From Arboricoccus pini (GTDB lineage: Bacteria > Pseudomonadota > Alphaproteobacteria > Geminicoccales > Geminicoccaceae): a stretch of DNA of 64,000 bases. Shown piece by piece: positions 18,394-57,426 of this stretch (its first letter is position 1; each line of letters starts with the position of its first letter). A model generated the notes under the pieces. The model searched no databases, was not told where the DNA came from, and was given only the letters and a program-made list of their open reading frames with translations. Both the position numbers and the translations under genes were made by a program. The DNA is taken from NCBI RefSeq assembly GCF_900187945.1, contig NZ_FYEH01000003.1, positions 248,001 to 312,000 of the forward strand, read 5' to 3'.

Positions 18394-19592
18394 CTATCTC
18401 AAGCGATGACGGATGCGACGACGCCGGCACCGACGGTACGGCCACCCTCGCGGATGGCAAACCGCAGGCCCTGCTCCATCGCAATCGGTGCGATCAGTTC
18501 GACTTCCATCGTGATATTGTCCCCAGGCATCACCATCTCGGTGCCCTCGGGTAGCTTGATCGAGCCCGTCACGTCCGTCGTCCGGAAATAGAACTGCGGA
18601 CGATAGTTCGAGAAGAACGGCGTGTGACGACCACCCTCTTCCTTGTTCAGGATATACGTCTCGGCCATGAACTTCGTGTGCGGCGTGATCGAGCCCGGCT
18701 TGCAGAGAACCTGACCGCGCTCAACGTCATCTCGCTTCGTGCCGCGCAGCAGGATGCCGACATTGTCGCCAGCCTCGCCACGGTCCAGAAGCTTGCGGAA
18801 CATCTCCACACCCGTGCACGTCGTCTTCTGCGTCGCCCGGATACCGACGATCTCGACTTCGTCGCCCACCTTGATGATGCCACGCTCAACACGACCCGTC
18901 ACAACCGTGCCACGGCCCGAGATCGAGAACACATCCTCAATCGGCATCAGGAACGGCTGGTCCACCGCCCGCTCCGGCTGCGGAATATACGTGTCCACCG
19001 CCGTCATCAGCTCAAGGATGCGATCCTTGCCCACCGCGTCGTCCTTGCCCTCAAGCGCCGCCAGCGCCGAGCCCTTGATGATCGGGATGTCGTCCCCTGG
19101 AAACTCATACTTCGAGAGCAGCTCGCGAACCTCGAGCTCCACCAGCTCCAAAAGCTCCGGGTCGTCGACCATGTCGACCTTGTTCAAGAACACCACCAGC
19201 GCAGGAACACCAACCTGCCGAGCCAGCAAAATGTGCTCCCGCGTCTGCGGCATCGGACCGTCAGCCGCCGACACAACCAGGATCGCGCCATCCATCTGCG
19301 CTGCACCCGTGATCATGTTCTTCACGTAGTCCGCATGGCCTGGGCAGTCCACGTGCGCATAGTGACGATCCTGCGTCTCGTATTCCACATGCGCCGTGTT
19401 GATCGTAATGCCCCGGGCCTTCTCCTCAGGAGCCTTGTCAATCGAATCGTACGCCTGGAACGTCGCGCCGCCCGTCTCAGCCAGCACCTTCGTGATCGCC
19501 GCCGTCAACGTCGTCTTGCCATGGTCAACATGGCCAATCGTCCCAATATTCGCGTGCGGCTTCGTCCGCGAAAACTTCTCCTTCGACATCGA
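18394..19592 (-). repeat. 1,199-bp direct repeat (tuf copy 2), identical to 1497-2695
   Basis: This is the second member of the identical tuf pair, at an offset of 16,897 bases. It is in the same orientation as copy 1. Homologous exchange between the copies could therefore duplicate or delete everything from rpsL to secE. Confidence 0.9.
18399..19589 (-). CDS. tuf: Elongation factor Tu, copy 2 (tRNA-tufB locus)
   Basis: This 396-residue EF-Tu is identical in sequence to the str-operon copy. It has the same [14 protein letters not shown] and NKVD motifs. It lies downstream of tRNA-Tyr and tRNA-Gly and upstream of tRNA-Trp and secE, matching the enterobacterial tufB position. It ends in its own intrinsic terminator and is probably cotranscribed with the two tRNAs upstream (67 bases from tRNA-Gly). 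Confidence 0.98.
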
Positions 19593-50046: not shown

Positions 50047-51410
50047 GTGCCTCTCCTTAATAGCGACGTCCGATATAATATTGGCGTCCGATCACATCGC
50101 GACGGGGAGGATCCAAGGCGGCAATAGGCGACGCCGATCAATCGGCGCCGCCTTAATCCAAGGGATTGCTCGGTCGCCTTTATACACCGCGACCTGGATC
50201 GATCATCGCAGACTGATCTTAAGGCTCAGTTATCGTCTGCACCGCCCACGGACCATCGCTCACAGGCGAAACGGCCGTGCACGGCGAGGAAACTCGCCGG
50301 ACGTCATACCGCAGTGCGATCGCACCGAATAAACAAGGCAGCTCGTTCCGCATCAGCGGTGGATATCGGGCACGGCATTTCCGCCATATTTGGGACGAAC
50401 TCGGCAGTGGGAAGGTGGCGCCGTCAGCATTCGAACTCGCAACGAATACCGCGAGCCGGCGTGCTTTAGGGAAGCTATCGTCCTGGGACACCGACCGGAA
50501 GGCGAAGTAGCCTCTAGCGCTGCCTTCGATCCACCGGGTCCCGCGAAGCGAAGGACGACGATGCAATGTCCTCGATCTCGCCGCCTGTGCGGCCCGTCGA
50601 TCAATGCCGAAGCAAGGGCGATGATGGCGCCGAATCGACGCGGCGACACGGCCATGCCCAGATCACCGCCGCTAGTGCGCGCTTTATTTCTAGGCGCTAG
50701 AGGCATCTGAAGAGCTTTGATGGGCGTCGCTAACTCAAAGATTGCTTCCCGGCCCAAGTCATCGACCTCGGCTATTATAAACCTGGCAACACTCGTCTGG
50801 CGTTCACGCGGATTTGACGTCGTGATCGACCTGAGAGCCGAATAATCGGCCAGCGCGACGCAACGTGGCGACAGCTCGCGAGTTGAGAGGCCACGCGCAT
50901 GCTCATTCAAGCTTTCGCAAGACCAACCAGACATCCAAGGTCGAGGAAATAAGAGAGATGATCAGTTTATCTCTTCGACAAGCTGACCAGCCGACTGGGC
51001 ATTCTACACGTAAAGACATCGCATGATATCGATTTTGTGTATGGGCCAGACGAACGTCACACTCGAAGACTGGGACAGCTTCTCGATGAATGTCCAGGTC
51101 AGGATGAGTGGTCTTTTCAGCGATAGCGTGGACCCTGACAGGAGATGCGGACGAACATGGTTCTCCCAAAGCGGCCACGTCGTCTGGGTCCCTGCGATGA
51201 TCGCGACCGCGACGCGCGCCAGGAACCCCTTCGCATCGCCTCCTCCTCGTCGGCTTAGACGGCCGGGTGTGGGCCACATCTCGCGCAGTTACAGTCAGGA
51301 CTTCCTGAACGATCGAATGCCGACTTTAACTACGATTGGGAATGCCGATTAATTTCACCATTATTTCGCATAAGACGCGATCATCTTTTAAACTCAGGGA
51401 ATGAATAACT
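50047..51410. other. 1.36-kb region without a convincing gene
   Basis: The only longish ORF (193 codons on the minus strand, 50353-50934) has no recognisable domain or ribosome site. Bases 50115-50154 form a nested hairpin, with AAGGCGGC pairing GCCGCCTT and an inner GCCGA/TCGGC stem. The last 100 bases become AT-rich and probably carry the promoter for the small peptide and the genes that follow. Confidence 0.45.
50115..50154. other. Nested hairpin upstream of the TolA-like gene
   Basis: The outer 8-bp arms AAGGCGGC and GCCGCCTT pair perfectly, and an inner GCCGA/TCGGC stem lies within them. It sits 69 bases before the GTG start on the minus strand. No T run follows, so a leader or processing role is possible. 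Confidence 0.35.
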
Positions 51411-51485
51411 ATGCCAGCGATAATATTATGGCTGATCGGCATACCAATACCGATTATCATATTATTAGTTTTATTCTTTCACTAG
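51411..51485 (+). CDS. 24-residue hydrophobic peptide
   Basis: This tiny ORF starts MPAIILWLIGIP and ends LVLFFH, so nearly the whole chain is one membrane span with a Trp and two Pro. AGGGA lies 10 bases before the ATG. Similar single-span micro-proteins of the WLxGIPxxIIxLL type are common in alphaproteobacteria, to my knowledge without an assigned role. It is 41 bases before a larger membrane-protein gene, so it may share a transcript with it. Confidence 0.55.
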   Translation: MPAIILWLIGIPIPIIILLVLFFH

Positions 51486-51526
51486 TTTAGTATAATAGAA
51501 AAATATGCGATGAGGTAGAAACTGCG

Positions 51527-52414
51527 ATGAATTCCATCGGGCATGCGGCGGCTCTCGAGGCCGACGAAAGCACAGCCTCCGCGATTTCGTGGGCAGCCGT
51601 CCTAGGAGGTGCCTTTGCATCGGCATCGTTGGCCATGATCCTTCTTGCCGGGGGCGCTGGCCTGGGTCTGTTGTCGGTATCGCCTTGGTCCGGCACCGGC
51701 ATCGCCGCCTCCACGTTCGGGATCGGCGCGATAATCTGGCTCATTGTCGTCCAGGTGGCGTCTTCGGGCTTCGGTGGCTATCTGGCAGGACGGCTGCGAA
51801 CCCGATGGAGCGGCCTCCATGGCGGTGAAGTCTATTTCCGCGACACCGCACACGGCTTTTTATCCTGGGCGGTCGGTGCGGTGATCAGCGCGGCCATCCT
51901 TACCTCGACGATATCGAGCCTTGTAGGTGGCGTCGCGCAAACGGGCGCAAGCGCTGTCACCGGCATCGGTAGCGCCGCGGTCCAGGCCGGCGGCCAGGCT
52001 GCCCAGGGCGTGTCCGGGAGCACGCCGATATCCTATTATGTGGACACCATGTTCCGCGCCGACCACGCCACGAACACGGCCGATAGCGGGCAGGCGCGTG
52101 CCGAGATCGGGCAGATCGTTACCACTAGTTTGATGAATGGTCAGATGAGCCCTGACGATCGCACCTATGTGGCTCGGATAATCGCGGCGCAGACCGGACT
52201 TAGTCAAGCAGACGCTGAACAACGTGTCGACCAAGTCGTCGGCCAGGCAAAGGCGGCGGCCGACAAGGTCGCGGAGAGCACCCGGGCTGCTGCGGACAAA
52301 GCGCGTGTCACGGCGGCCGCCATATCCGTTTGGACCTTCATCTCGATGTTGATCGGCGCGTTTAGCGCCAGCCTTTGCGCGACCTTCGGGGGCCGAGCCC
52401 GCGACCTCGTATAA
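51527..52414 (+). CDS. Multi-span membrane protein of unknown function (often annotated PhnA-like)
   Basis: This 295-residue protein has hydrophobic helices at about residues 22-48, 58-82, 108-132 and 263-287. A long Ala/Ser/Gln-rich loop (about 140-260) may reach the periplasm. Residues 228-260 ([20 protein letters not shown]) form a helical, apolipoprotein-like segment. Similar proteins are seen in soil alphaproteobacteria, often near stress genes. I know of no established function. It lies 67 bases before the catalase gene. Confidence 0.7.
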
Positions 52415-52481
52415 CCCGGCTTTCCTACCTGGATGCCGTTCGAAAAGCACCGATTGCGAGCTTGGCTCGCGAGAACTGGAT

Positions 52482-54596
52482 ATGCCAATGACTAAAAAAT
52501 TCGAATCTGTTCAGGTGGATGACCTGGCTTTGAACACCGGCCAGGGTGGAGAAGTCCATCAGATAGCTGGCGGCGATGTCGAGACGCTGACGACGCAAGG
52601 TGGAACGCCGGTCAGCGACGACCAGAACTCGCTCAAGGCTGGCTCACGCGGTCCCACCCTTCTGGAGGACCAGCATTTTCGCGAGAAAATCTTCCACTTC
52701 GACCATGAGCGCATTCCAGAGCGGGTGGTGCACGCGCGTGGCTTTGGCGCCCACGGCTTTTTTGAAACCTATGAGTCGCTAGCCGATATCACGGCGGCCG
52801 ATATCTTCCAGCGGGCCGGCGAGAAGACGGAGATGTTCGTTCGTTTCTCGACCGTGGCCGGCAATAAAGGCTCGCCCGATCTCGCCCGGGATGTGAGGGG
52901 CTTTGCCTGCCGCTTTTATACGAAAGAGGGCAACTGGGATCTTGTCGGCAATAATATCCCGGTCTTCTTCATCCAGGATGCGATCAAGTTTCCAGATCTC
53001 ATTCATGCCGCCAAGGCCGCACCCGACCGCGACTTCCCGCAGGCGCAGACCGCCCACGACAATTTCTGGGACTTCATCTCTCTCTCGCCCGAATCCATGC
53101 ACATGGCACTTTGGATCATGTCCGATCGGACGATCCCGCGCTCGTTGCGCTTCATGGAGGGATTTGGCGTTCACACCTTCAGGCTGGTCAACGCTGCCGG
53201 CAAGTCGACCTTCGTCAAGTTCCACTGGAAGCCGGCTTTGGGCCTTCAGTCGGTGGTCTGGAACGAGGCCCTCAAGCTCAATGGCGCGGACCCGGATTTC
53301 CATCGCCGTGATCTCTGGGACGCCATCCAGATGGGCGATTTTCCCGAGTGGGAGCTCGGCATGCAACTCTTCGACGACGCGTTCGCGGAGCGGTTCGATT
53401 TCGATATCCTGGATGCTACCAAATTCATCCCGGAAGAGGAAGTGCCGATCCGGATCGTCGGCAAGATGACGCTCGATCGCTGCGTCGACAATTTCTTCTT
53501 GGAAACCGAGCAGGTTGCCTTTCAGACTGGCAACATCGTGCCAGGCATTGATTTTTCCAATGATCCCTTGCTGCAGGGGCGAAATTTTTCTTATCTGGAT
53601 ACGCAATTAAAGCGCCTGGGCAGCCCGAACTTCACCCACATCCCGGTGAACGCACCGCGTTGCCCTGTGCGGCATTTTCAGCAAGACGGCCATATGGCGA
53701 TGCAGAGCCGCAAGGGGCGCGCCAATTACGAGCCGAATTCCTGGGGCGCCGACATTGGCGGCCCGCGCGAGTCGCCCGAGCGGGGCTTTCGCAGCTTTCC
53801 TGCCGAGGAGAGCGGTGGAAAAGCGCGGGTCCGCTCGGAGACCTTCGCCGACCATTACAGCCAGGCCCGGCAGTTCTATCTGTCGCAGACGGAGGTCGAA
53901 CAAAACCACATCGCCAAGGCATTTATCTTCGAGCTCTCGAAGGTGGAGACCTTGGCCATCCGCTCACGGATGGTGGCGCATCTACTCAATGTCGACGAAG
54001 GACTGGCCAAGAAGGTCGCAACGGAACTGCGGCTCAAGGACATGCCCAAGCCCGCATCCGCCAAGCGGCCGACGAAGATGGATCTGAAGGCATCACCGAA
54101 GCTCTCGATCCTGCTGAACGGCCCCAAGAGCTTCAAGGGCCGCAAGCTCGGCATCCTCGTGACCGACGGCGTGGACGCCGGCCTGCTGACGGGCCTCAAG
54201 AAGGCGATCGAGTCCGAAGGCGCATTGATCGAGATCGTGGCCCCCAATATTGGCGGTGTGAAGGCCAGCGATGGCAGCTGGATCGAGGCCAAGCAAAAGA
54301 TCGATGGCGGCCCGTCGGTGCTTTATGACGCCGTCGCGGTGCTGACGTCGAAGGAGGGAGCGGCGCTGCTGGCCAAACTCCCGCCAGCCAAGGATTTCGT
54401 CACGGATGCCTTTGCCCACTGCAAGTTCATCGCCTATTCGGCCCAGGCCTTGGCGTTATTCGAGAAAGCAGGCCTCGCCGCCGACCTCGATCAAGGCTGC
54501 GTGAAGCTCGATGCCGCCAAAGAGGCCAAGAGCTTCGTCGAGCTTTGCCGCGAGCTGCGCTTCTGGCCTCGCGAGAAGACCCTCGAACCAGCTTAA
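52482..54596 (+). CDS. katE: Large-subunit catalase (clade 2, KatE/HPII type)
   Basis: This 704-residue catalase has the active His84 in [14 protein letters not shown] and Asn158 in [13 protein letters not shown]. The heme-ligand Tyr371 is in [14 protein letters not shown]. The extra C-terminal flavodoxin/DJ-1-like domain (about residues 550-704, [16 protein letters not shown]) is the mark of large catalases. It degrades hydrogen peroxide in the cytoplasm. It is downstream of the small peptide and membrane-protein genes, which suggests a stress-related group. Confidence 0.96.
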
Positions 54597-55064: not shown

Positions 55065-55120
55065 TAGTCGTCAGGCCATGGCTGGCTGAATGGCCGATGA
55101 ACGGCCGGTCGGAGACGAAC

Positions 55121-55612
55121 ATGATGATGACCAGACGCGTGGCGCTGGGCGCTGTTGCAGCCGCCGCAATCGCGGCCGAGGCGCGAAAGACGATGCGGCC
55201 AGCAAAGGCCGGTGAAACCTTCCCGGTTACGCATGACGACGCGGAATGGCACCGCTTGCTGACCCCTGAACAATATGCGGTGCTACGTCAGAGCGCGACC
55301 GAACGGCCCTTCACCAGTTCGCTGCTCCACGAAAGAAGGGTTGGCGTCTTCACCTGCGCTGGCTGCGCACGCGACCTCTTCGCCTCGGCTACCAAATTCG
55401 ATAGCGGGACTGGCTGGCCTAGCTTTTGGGCTCCGCTCGAGCAGGCTGTGGAAACAAAATCCGACGACTCCTTCGGCATGAACCGCACCGCCGTTCGCTG
55501 TCACGGCTGCGGCGGACATCTAGGCCACGTATTCGATGACGGCCCCAAACCCACCGGCCTGCGCTATTGCATGAACGGTGTAGCCATGAACTTCAAAGCC
55601 GAAATCGCCTGA
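55121..55612 (+). CDS. msrB: Exported peptide-methionine (R)-S-oxide reductase
   Basis: This 163-residue MsrB has zinc Cys79/Cys82 (FTCAGC) and Cys127/Cys130 (RCHGCGGHLGHVFDDG). The catalytic Cys150 is in GLRYCMNGVAM. The N-terminus MMMTRRVALGAVAAAAIAAE is a twin-arginine-like export signal, so repair takes place in the periplasm. ATG 55121 is chosen because GGAG lies 6 bases upstream; the ORF starts earlier at 55097. It is cotranscribed with dipZ (20 bases). Confidence 0.92.
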   Translation: MMMTRRVALGAVAAAAIAAEARKTMRPAKAGETFPVTHDDAEWHRLLTPEQYAVLRQSATERPFTSSLLHERRVGVFTCAGCARDLFASATKFDSGTGWPSFWAPLEQAVETKSDDSFGMNRTAVRCHGCGGHLGHVFDDGPKPTGLRYCMNGVAMNFKAEIA

Positions 55613-55632
55613 TTTTTTGAGGAATTCCTCTC

Positions 55633-57426
55633 ATGCTGTTCTTCGTGCTGGCCTATTTCGGCGGCGTCTTGACCATCCTTAGCCCCTGCATCCTACCCGT
55701 TCTGCCCTTCGTCTTCGCGCGATCGGATCGGCCGTTCGTCAGCAGCGGTCTGCCGATGCTGATCGGGATGGCATTGACCTTCGCCGCGGTGGCCACGCTG
55801 GCTGCGGTAGGAGGCGGCTGGGTGATACAGGCGAATGCGTATGGTCGTACACTCGCCCTAATCTTGTTGACGCTCTTTGGTGTCACTTTGATCTTCCCCG
55901 CTTTGTCAGAGTGGCTGACACGGCCTCTTGTCGATTGGGGCTCGCGCCTGTCCCAATCGGGGGACAGGCATCGTGGCGCCTCGCCGCTATTGCCTTCGCT
56001 GGGACTTGGCCTTGCCACGGGCTTGCTCTGGGCCCCCTGTGCCGGGCCGATCCTGGGGCTGATCCTAACGGGCGCAGCCCTCCACGGTGCCAGCGTCGAG
56101 ACCTCGCTCCTGCTGGCGACCTATGCCGCTGGTGCAGCGACCTCGCTGGCCCTGGCCCTTGTCATCGGCGGCCGTGTCTTCAAGGCGATGAAACGAATGC
56201 TCGGCGCCGGCGAGTGGATAAGGCGGGGACTGGGTGCTGCCGTCATAGCCGCCGTGGTCGTCGTCGCCTTAGGCCTCGATACAAGCTTCCTCACTCAGGT
56301 CTCGCTGGCGAACACGACGTCGGTCGAACAGATGTTGCTCGACAGGATCCGCCCCCCTCTCCCGGCGCAGGCCTCGGCCCCAACGGTCGGCGACGGCAAT
56401 ACCGCCCGCACGAGCGACACCGCGATGACGCAAGGTGCGTCGACAAAGCAACTCGACGACTTGCCGGTCATCGGCACTTCGCCAGCTCTGTCCGGTGCGG
56501 TCCAATGGTTGAACTCACCGCCCCTGACGACAGACGAACTAAAGGGCAAGGTTGTCCTGGTGGATTTCTGGACCTACTCGTGCATCAATTGCTTGAGGGA
56601 GCTGCCTTATGTCCGGGCTTGGGCCCAAAAGTATAAGAGCCAGGGCCTCGTCGTAATAGGCGTCCACGCGCCCGAGTTTGCCTTTGAACGAGACATCAAC
56701 AATGTGAAGAAGGCAATTGACGACCTCAAGATCAACTTTCCTGTAGCCGTCGACAACGATTATGCGATTTGGCGCGCCTTCGCCAACGAATATTGGCCAG
56801 CAGAGTATTTCATCGACGCTCAAGGCCGCATTCGACATCAGCAATTCGGTGAGGGTGACTATGATCGTTCCGAGCGAGTCATCCAGCAACTCATTGCCGA
56901 GACCGGCAAGGGCGATGTGCCGGCGGGAATTGTCCAGGTCAACGCTTCGGGCGCCGAAGCGGCCGCAGACATGGACGACGTCAAGTCGCCGGAAACTTAT
57001 GTGGGCTACCGGCGCGCGGAAAATTTCGCCTCAGAGAACGATATGATCGCTGACGCGCCGCACGTCTATAAAACGGCCGATCTCCAGCTCAACGAGTGGG
57101 GCCTCGCCGGTAACTGGACCATCAACGGCGAGTATGCTGCCCTCAATCAGGCGGGCGGTGATATCGTCTACAAATTCCATGCGCGCGACTTGCATCTAGT
57201 CCTTGGTCCGGCACCTGAAGGACGGCCTATCAGGTTTCAAATCACGATCGATGGGCAAAAGCCTGGCGCCGCCCACGGCGCCGATGTTGATGCCCAGGGT
57301 GAAGGCGTGGTGACCGACCAGCGGCTCTATCAACTGGTCCGTCAGAGCGGTCCCGTCAGGGATCACACATTTGAAATTCACTTCCTCGATGCCGGCGTGC
57401 AGGCCTATGCCTTCACGTTCGGCTGA
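55633..57426 (+). CDS. dipZ: DipZ-like electron-transfer protein (CcdA/DsbD + redoxin + C-terminal sugar-binding-like domain)
   Basis: This 597-residue protein has a six-helix CcdA-type domain with redox Cys19 (LSPC) and Cys136 (WAPC). A thioredoxin-like domain (about 280-430) with WTYSCINC (C317/C320) follows, then a C-terminal beta domain (about 450-597). The order resembles mycobacterial DipZ. It probably passes electrons from cytoplasmic thioredoxin across the inner membrane to the neighbouring exported MsrB. GAGG lies 10 bases before the ATG. Confidence 0.85.
   Translation: MLFFVLAYFGGVLTILSPCILPVLPFVFARSDRPFVSSGLPMLIGMALTFAAVATLAAVGGGWVIQANAYGRTLALILLTLFGVTLIFPALSEWLTRPLVDWGSRLSQSGDRHRGASPLLPSLGLGLATGLLWAPCAGPILGLILTGAALHGASVETSLLLATYAAGAATSLALALVIGGRVFKAMKRMLGAGEWIRRGLGAAVIAAVVVVALGLDTSFLTQVSLANTTSVEQMLLDRIRPPLPAQASAPTVGDGNTARTSDTAMTQGASTKQLDDLPVIGTSPALSGAVQWLNSPPLTTDELKGKVVLVDFWTYSCINCLRELPYVRAWAQKYKSQGLVVIGVHAPEFAFERDINNVKKAIDDLKINFPVAVDNDYAIWRAFANEYWPAEYFIDAQGRIRHQQFGEGDYDRSERVIQQLIAETGKGDVPAGIVQVNASGAEAAADMDDVKSPETYVGYRRAENFASENDMIADAPHVYKTADLQLNEWGLAGNWTINGEYAALNQAGGDIVYKFHARDLHLVLGPAPEGRPIRFQITIDGQKPGAAHGADVDAQGEGVVTDQRLYQLVRQSGPVRDHTFEIHFLDAGVQAYAFTFG

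Follow-up and report, generated by a model that had tools for sequence, protein, structure and literature searches.

The question raised by this locus is whether a very short reading frame in front of a membrane protein gene and a catalase gene is itself a gene and, if so, what its product might do. The window analyzed here is the whole 64,000-nucleotide stretch of the Arboricoccus pini genome. An initial annotation proposed that positions 51411-51485 encode a single-span peptide of the WLxGIP type that standard annotation would miss, and that the peptide, an uncharacterised membrane protein and a large KatE-like catalase belong to a stress module.

The ORF lies at 51411..51485 on the + strand, runs from ATG to TAG and encodes 24 amino acids, MPAIILWLIGIPIPIIILLVLFFH. 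A Shine-Dalgarno-like AGGGAA was read in the sequence at 51396..51401 (+). This ribosome site is modest, stands about 10 nt from the ATG and is weaker than the sites of relatives. Hydrophobicity predicts one span, with the core ILWLIGIPIP and an aliphatic residue, V20, 13 positions after the core Trp (W+13). The window copy has the features by which family members were recognized, namely a short ORF, a W-x-x-G-x-P core and hydrophobic character almost to the end. The basic residue near the N terminus of many members is missing. The ORF sits in an AT-rich dip, with 29% GC at 51400-51499 compared with 57-69% in the 100-nt segments of 51500-52399.

The search of named genomes generated at least 593 pattern matches, of which 154 were confirmed. 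The best 80 loci by similarity to the window peptide were kept (L021-L100) and, together with the window itself, make up the 81 loci discussed below. The named loci are mainly alphaproteobacterial, with others from Achromobacter, Pigmentiphaga, Bordetella, Aquabacterium and Pseudomonas, and they hold 83 peptide copies of 21-28 aa. The family can be described as WLxGIP peptides of about 21-28 residues with one predicted span and the core LLWLLGVPIP; MGRGILLWLLGVPIPIIILLALFFR and MRSILLWLLGVPIPIIILLALFWH are typical sequences from named loci. All 83 copies have an ATG and a Shine-Dalgarno site. An AGGA/GGAG/GAGG-type site precedes 83/83 peptide copies compared with 1502/13097 when every ATG in these loci is counted. 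Some copies outside the named loci start with GTG. All 37 members chosen for alignment keep W, G and P in the core, whereas Leu replaces the core Trp in rare copies outside these 37.

The pN/pS ratio, which is biased low because loci were picked by peptide similarity, was 0.003 in Achromobacter (seven distinct DNA versions of one identical peptide), 0.037 in a Bradyrhizobium group (nine versions), 0.10 in a Sphingobium group (eight versions) and 0.16 in a Rhizobium group that includes Shinella, Mesorhizobium and Aminobacter (fourteen versions). Even with ratios that lean low, it is plain from these alignments that synonymous change lies far above amino-acid change. Comparative evidence of this kind establishes both the family and its coding nature, and on this evidence the ORF of 24 codons is a genuine gene, far beyond chance. 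The ORF with its ribosome site proposed in the initial annotation is exact at 51411-51485, and the family to which it was assigned was recovered widely.

Conservation in relatives had been suggested as the check on this gene, and the peptide was found in genome samples as well as in the named loci. Peptide matches were obtained in 33/240 genomes sampled from the same class (alignment A4, E <= 0.01) and in 44/299 genomes sampled from the phylum (E <= 0.001), of which 30 share its class and 14 belong to other classes. A tblastn search of plasmids with the 24-mer gave no match with the low-complexity filter on, which may mask so hydrophobic a query. Peptide copies were found in plasmids when the DNA was read directly. 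The prediction that standard annotation would miss the peptide was borne out in six plasmid gene tables, themselves incomplete, that lack it while the DNA holds it. The peptide is also encoded on a contig labelled Candidatus Marinimicrobia (a MAG; L085), where an EcfG-type promoter, described below, starts 59 nt upstream. Given this promoter, the contig may be alphaproteobacterial and misbinned.

None of the 37 members matched Pfam at E <= 0.1, and NCBIfam gave weak matches only, for 5 members to an archaeal sorting signal and for 1 member to CydX. Small size appears to be the reason why such libraries lack the family. No description of it was found in the literature covered, namely the main text of open-access articles and few subscription papers. 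In the open-access text covered, the core strings WLLGVP, WLLGIP, WLIGVP and WLIGIP matched only in a signal-peptide context. The peptide is a new family among small single-span membrane proteins, a kind already known.

The gene that follows the peptide, at 51527..52414 (+), encodes a 295-aa membrane protein with four long predicted helices, and a Shine-Dalgarno-like GAGGT was read at 51512..51516 (+). Searches with 29 members of this partner against Pfam and NCBIfam gave no convincing family (best E 0.006). An AlphaFold model (mean pLDDT 78, pTM 0.58) has four long helices, and the model had no match in the PDB at E <= 0.001. The ORF cluster of the partner reaches 39/81 loci, and in 38 of them it lies within ~200 nt of the peptide on the same strand, following it in 32 loci and preceding it in 6. 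The uncharacterised membrane protein had been placed correctly beside the peptide, and their association reaches well past the window. The window's own genome has one more homologue of the membrane protein, a distant one (L144, contig C21, 4242-5057), where the scan found no adjacent peptide.

Linkage was also examined from the side of the partner. The 240 genomes gave 31 partner matches, from which 30 loci with 28 distinct genes were taken. The peptide adjoins 13/28 distinct partner genes and 10/14 of the closest partner homologues, the window included in both counts. One of the 13 partner-adjacent peptides is on the opposite strand, three have a divergent WLLGAP core and one has Leu for Trp. 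Micro-proteins with this divergent core were spotted by position directly downstream of the membrane protein at L129, L130 and L131. On plasmids, the peptide is present at 6/8 partner loci read, out of 73 records. Across the 240 genomes the peptide occurs in 18/24 genomes with a partner compared with 15/216 others (both 18, peptide only 15, partner only 6, neither 201), in tests that take no account of genome size or kinship. By these comparisons the linkage of peptide and partner is conserved, and the partner is a conserved neighbour.

The spacing of the two genes bears on one alternative, in which the ORF acts chiefly as a leader or coupling element controlling translation of the downstream membrane gene, with the peptide itself of little weight. 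The gap is 8-11 nt in 17/32 downstream cases, and the partner Shine-Dalgarno site overlaps the peptide stop codon in 12/32, as such an ORF might have it. In the window the two genes are 41 nt apart, and the distance is 42-84 nt in the ten linked loci from Achromobacter, Pigmentiphaga and Bordetella. We consider a leader very improbable, given that amino acids are conserved amid many synonymous changes, that solitary peptide copies exist and that the partner precedes the peptide in 6 loci.

A single residue separates many of the linked copies from the solitary ones. At W+13, the 38 linked copies of the named loci have A (30), V (6) or M (2), whereas the 45 unlinked copies have W (24), Y (4), A (13) or one each of F, L, M and V. 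Counted as distinct peptides, W or Y occurs in 0/23 linked and 16/33 unlinked sequences. A second sample was drawn from class and phylum loci that partly overlap the named loci (L149 coincides with L039), and a partner was counted only if found by tblastn at E <= 1e-6, within 450 nt and on the same strand. There, W+13 is aliphatic in 18/18 linked copies and W or Y in 30/35 unlinked copies; among distinct peptides it is aromatic in 0/14 linked compared with 28/33 unlinked. Pooled, the residue is aliphatic in 56/56 counted linked copies and W or Y in 58/80 others. The window copy, with Val at W+13, is linked. At L139, outside the counted sets, a linked copy carries Tyr at this position. At L135, a Trp-type copy has a distant partner homologue next to it on the opposite strand. 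The association between residue and linkage is established by comparison. Common ancestry could explain the pattern, so W+13 hints at a docking surface without proving one.

Evidence for a stress function comes from promoters. EcfG-type promoters are reported as GGAAC-N16-CGTT for Rhizobium etli (PMC3892343) and as GGAAC-N17-20-GTT for Sphingomonas melonis (PMC6599016). The pattern GGAAC-N16..18-NGTT, which represents this published motif, was sought within 350 nt upstream of 87 peptide copies (83 named, 3 from plasmids and 1 from the window). It was present in 46/87 copies compared with 133/5082 background windows. Within 100 nt it precedes 40/83 named copies, at -51 to -93, and in the genome samples, whose loci partly overlap the named loci, 24/51 same-class copies compared with 40/3334 windows. 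The pattern on the opposite strand was also above background (13/87 and 6/51 copies). By motif, about half of the copies from alphaproteobacteria have an EcfG-type promoter in front of them, and its enrichment in relatives is established to that extent. It was found in 0/13 beta- and gammaproteobacterial named copies. In the other-class group of the genome samples scanned for the promoter, which comprises five loci, the motif scan found the peptide in two and the promoter in neither.

No EcfG-type promoter was found upstream of the window copy, where the best site (7/9) was equalled or exceeded by 932/2000 random 200-mers of the window. The genome of the window has PhyR, an HWE/HisKA_2 kinase and an EcfG-like sigma factor, along with a NepR-like match just below the cut-off (25.1 of 25.7 bits). 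NepR was matched in 21/33 peptide genomes compared with 16/207 others. In genome G144, a GTG-start peptide copy is flanked by an EcfG-type promoter and a gene for Fe/Mn superoxide dismutase. A further short ORF separates the promoter from the peptide. The distance from this copy is 2.2 kb to a nepR match and 1.4 kb to an EcfG-like ORF. At L180 (genome G117), a weak NepR match and two EcfG-like sigma ORFs occur ~4 kb from the peptide.

A short hydrophobic stress peptide need not have a protein target, and two further readings start from this point. The peptide might be a free-standing, bilayer-active molecule that changes membrane packing under stress, with the four-helix protein merely co-regulated. 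There is no adjacent partner in 43/81 loci, and many solitary copies retain both the core and an EcfG-type promoter, as a free-standing peptide might. We regard this as rather unlikely, since invariance of W, G and P in the 37 aligned members, the partner-linked residue at W+13, which points to a specific contact, and strong co-occurrence of peptide and partner in genomes all speak against it. Alternatively, the peptide might depolarize the membrane in the manner of a type I toxin and slow growth under stress. Short length, strong hydrophobicity and the stress promoters upstream in relatives would suit a toxin. Conservation across classes with a recurrent partner would not, nor does the region offer an antitoxin RNA by Rfam, the one route by which it was sought, which gave no family at gathering score in 50800-52600. 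A toxin is in our opinion improbable.

The large catalase is where it had been placed, at 52482..54596 (+), and is of the KatE/HPII type (NCBIfam HPII 909 bits, short of the model cut-off of 1102; Pfam Catalase 591 bits). Its inclusion in the module did not survive comparison. The BLAST cluster of the window KatE, counted as a cluster, reaches only 5/81 loci, up to 6 kb away, and KatE was ruled out as part of the conserved unit. The nearest case in the cluster is the window itself, with KatE one gene from the peptide. The stress module as a whole is retained in part, with EcfG-type promoters in relatives, though not at the window copy, and the conserved link to the membrane protein in its favor, and with KatE dropped.

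Further conserved neighbours were sought in 37 linked named loci among 142 ORFs, taken as up to two on each side of the peptide by an in-house ORF ranking that may admit some spurious ORFs. None of the first 25 of 122 Pfam families occurred in more than 6 members. Recurring neighbours were a low-affinity iron permease and a pyridoxamine-oxidase-like protein (4 each), and DUF892 and hemerythrin (2 each). In loci of the Bradyrhizobium group (L036, L040, L044, L062, L071, L094, L097, L099), a solitary peptide lies between ORFs that by eye are glyoxalase-like and glutathione-transferase-like. Just downstream of KatE in the window, 55097-57426 holds MsrB (TIGR00357, 166 bits) followed by a 597-aa protein with a membrane part and a thioredoxin-like part by eye. 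With its place next to KatE, this stretch is a possible oxidative-repair cluster. Elsewhere in the window, two EF-Tu ORFs of equal length, the same in sequence by eye (1502-2692 and 18399-19589), stand on either side of a block containing ribosomal protein genes together with fusA, rpoB/rpoC and nusG. Duplicated tuf is common in proteobacteria.

An antioxidant module of peptide, KatE and MsrB specific to the window locus was weighed against these neighbours. KatE and MsrB do lie just downstream of the peptide locus, annotated catalases are near in two plasmid relatives, the first of them without the peptide, and one peptide copy precedes a superoxide dismutase. With the KatE cluster confined to 5/81 loci and the neighbours beyond the partner diverse, we find such a module hardly credible.

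The reading we prefer, to which we give about an even chance, is that the peptide is a stress-induced one-helix subunit or regulator that docks on larger inner-membrane proteins. A widespread family, linkage to a partner and a stress promoter in relatives suggest that it is probably a minor component of a stress device in the membrane. The PhyR-NepR-EcfG pathway of the general stress response would probably activate the unit in many alphaproteobacteria. The peptide and, where adjacent, the partner of ~300 aa and four helices would probably share a transcript. The peptide would insert in the inner membrane as one helix, which, bent at the invariant Gly-x-Pro, could pack against a larger membrane protein and alter its assembly or activity under stress, presumably to the benefit of the cell. 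Copies with an aliphatic W+13, such as the window copy with V20, would dock on the four-helix partner. The 43/81 loci that lack it beside the peptide mean that this partner cannot be the only target, and the Trp/Tyr-type copies, which are mostly solitary, would serve other membrane targets. A broader and more doubtful proposal is that these peptides form a hidden class of effectors of ~24-28 residues in the general stress response of alphaproteobacteria, in which a bent W-x-x-G-x-P helix docks on membrane proteins of the stress response and W+13, a position inside the membrane, picks the four-helix partner or others.

Many effectors of the general stress response are uncharacterised. The peptide family, which is common in alphaproteobacteria, repeatedly linked to one partner and preceded in relatives by a promoter of the stress regulon, offers a small, directly testable candidate effector of this response. 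The peptide-partner unit is found across several classes and also on plasmids, as expected of a portable stress device. The two W+13 subtypes offer a natural system for studying how a single-helix protein selects its membrane partner.

Known small membrane proteins provide precedents for this scheme. CydX, the small subunit of cytochrome bd-I, is a short single-span peptide encoded beside a large membrane partner. The peptide has a similar gene pattern, beside a larger membrane protein in 38/81 loci, and one of the 37 members gives a weak NCBIfam match to CydX (E 0.053). Apart from that match, the 37 members had no homology to known small-subunit families in Pfam at E <= 0.1. Prli42 has a membrane role. 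It is described as a Listeria miniprotein tied to the general stress response. Prli42 differs from the peptide in phylum and in stress pathway, and the two were compared by description only. In Sinorhizobium meliloti, SEP6 is reported to be a protein of under 30 aa with a predicted transmembrane helix, conserved in Hyphomicrobiales and found in a pellet fraction with membranes and ribosomes (PMC10117765). By description, SEP6 may be a family member already shown to be translated.

The closest functional parallel is AcrZ, which in E. coli is bound to AcrB and resembles the WLxGIP peptide in being a small single-span protein with a proline in the helix. AcrZ is longer than the peptide. The peptide's partner belongs to no named family, and the likeness is drawn from descriptions of AcrZ. 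The N terminus of AcrZ is reported to be in the periplasm, its helix is bent at the proline, and P16A abolishes AcrB binding (PMC7267776). By this analogy, AcrZ is the working model that we favor for how the peptide may act.
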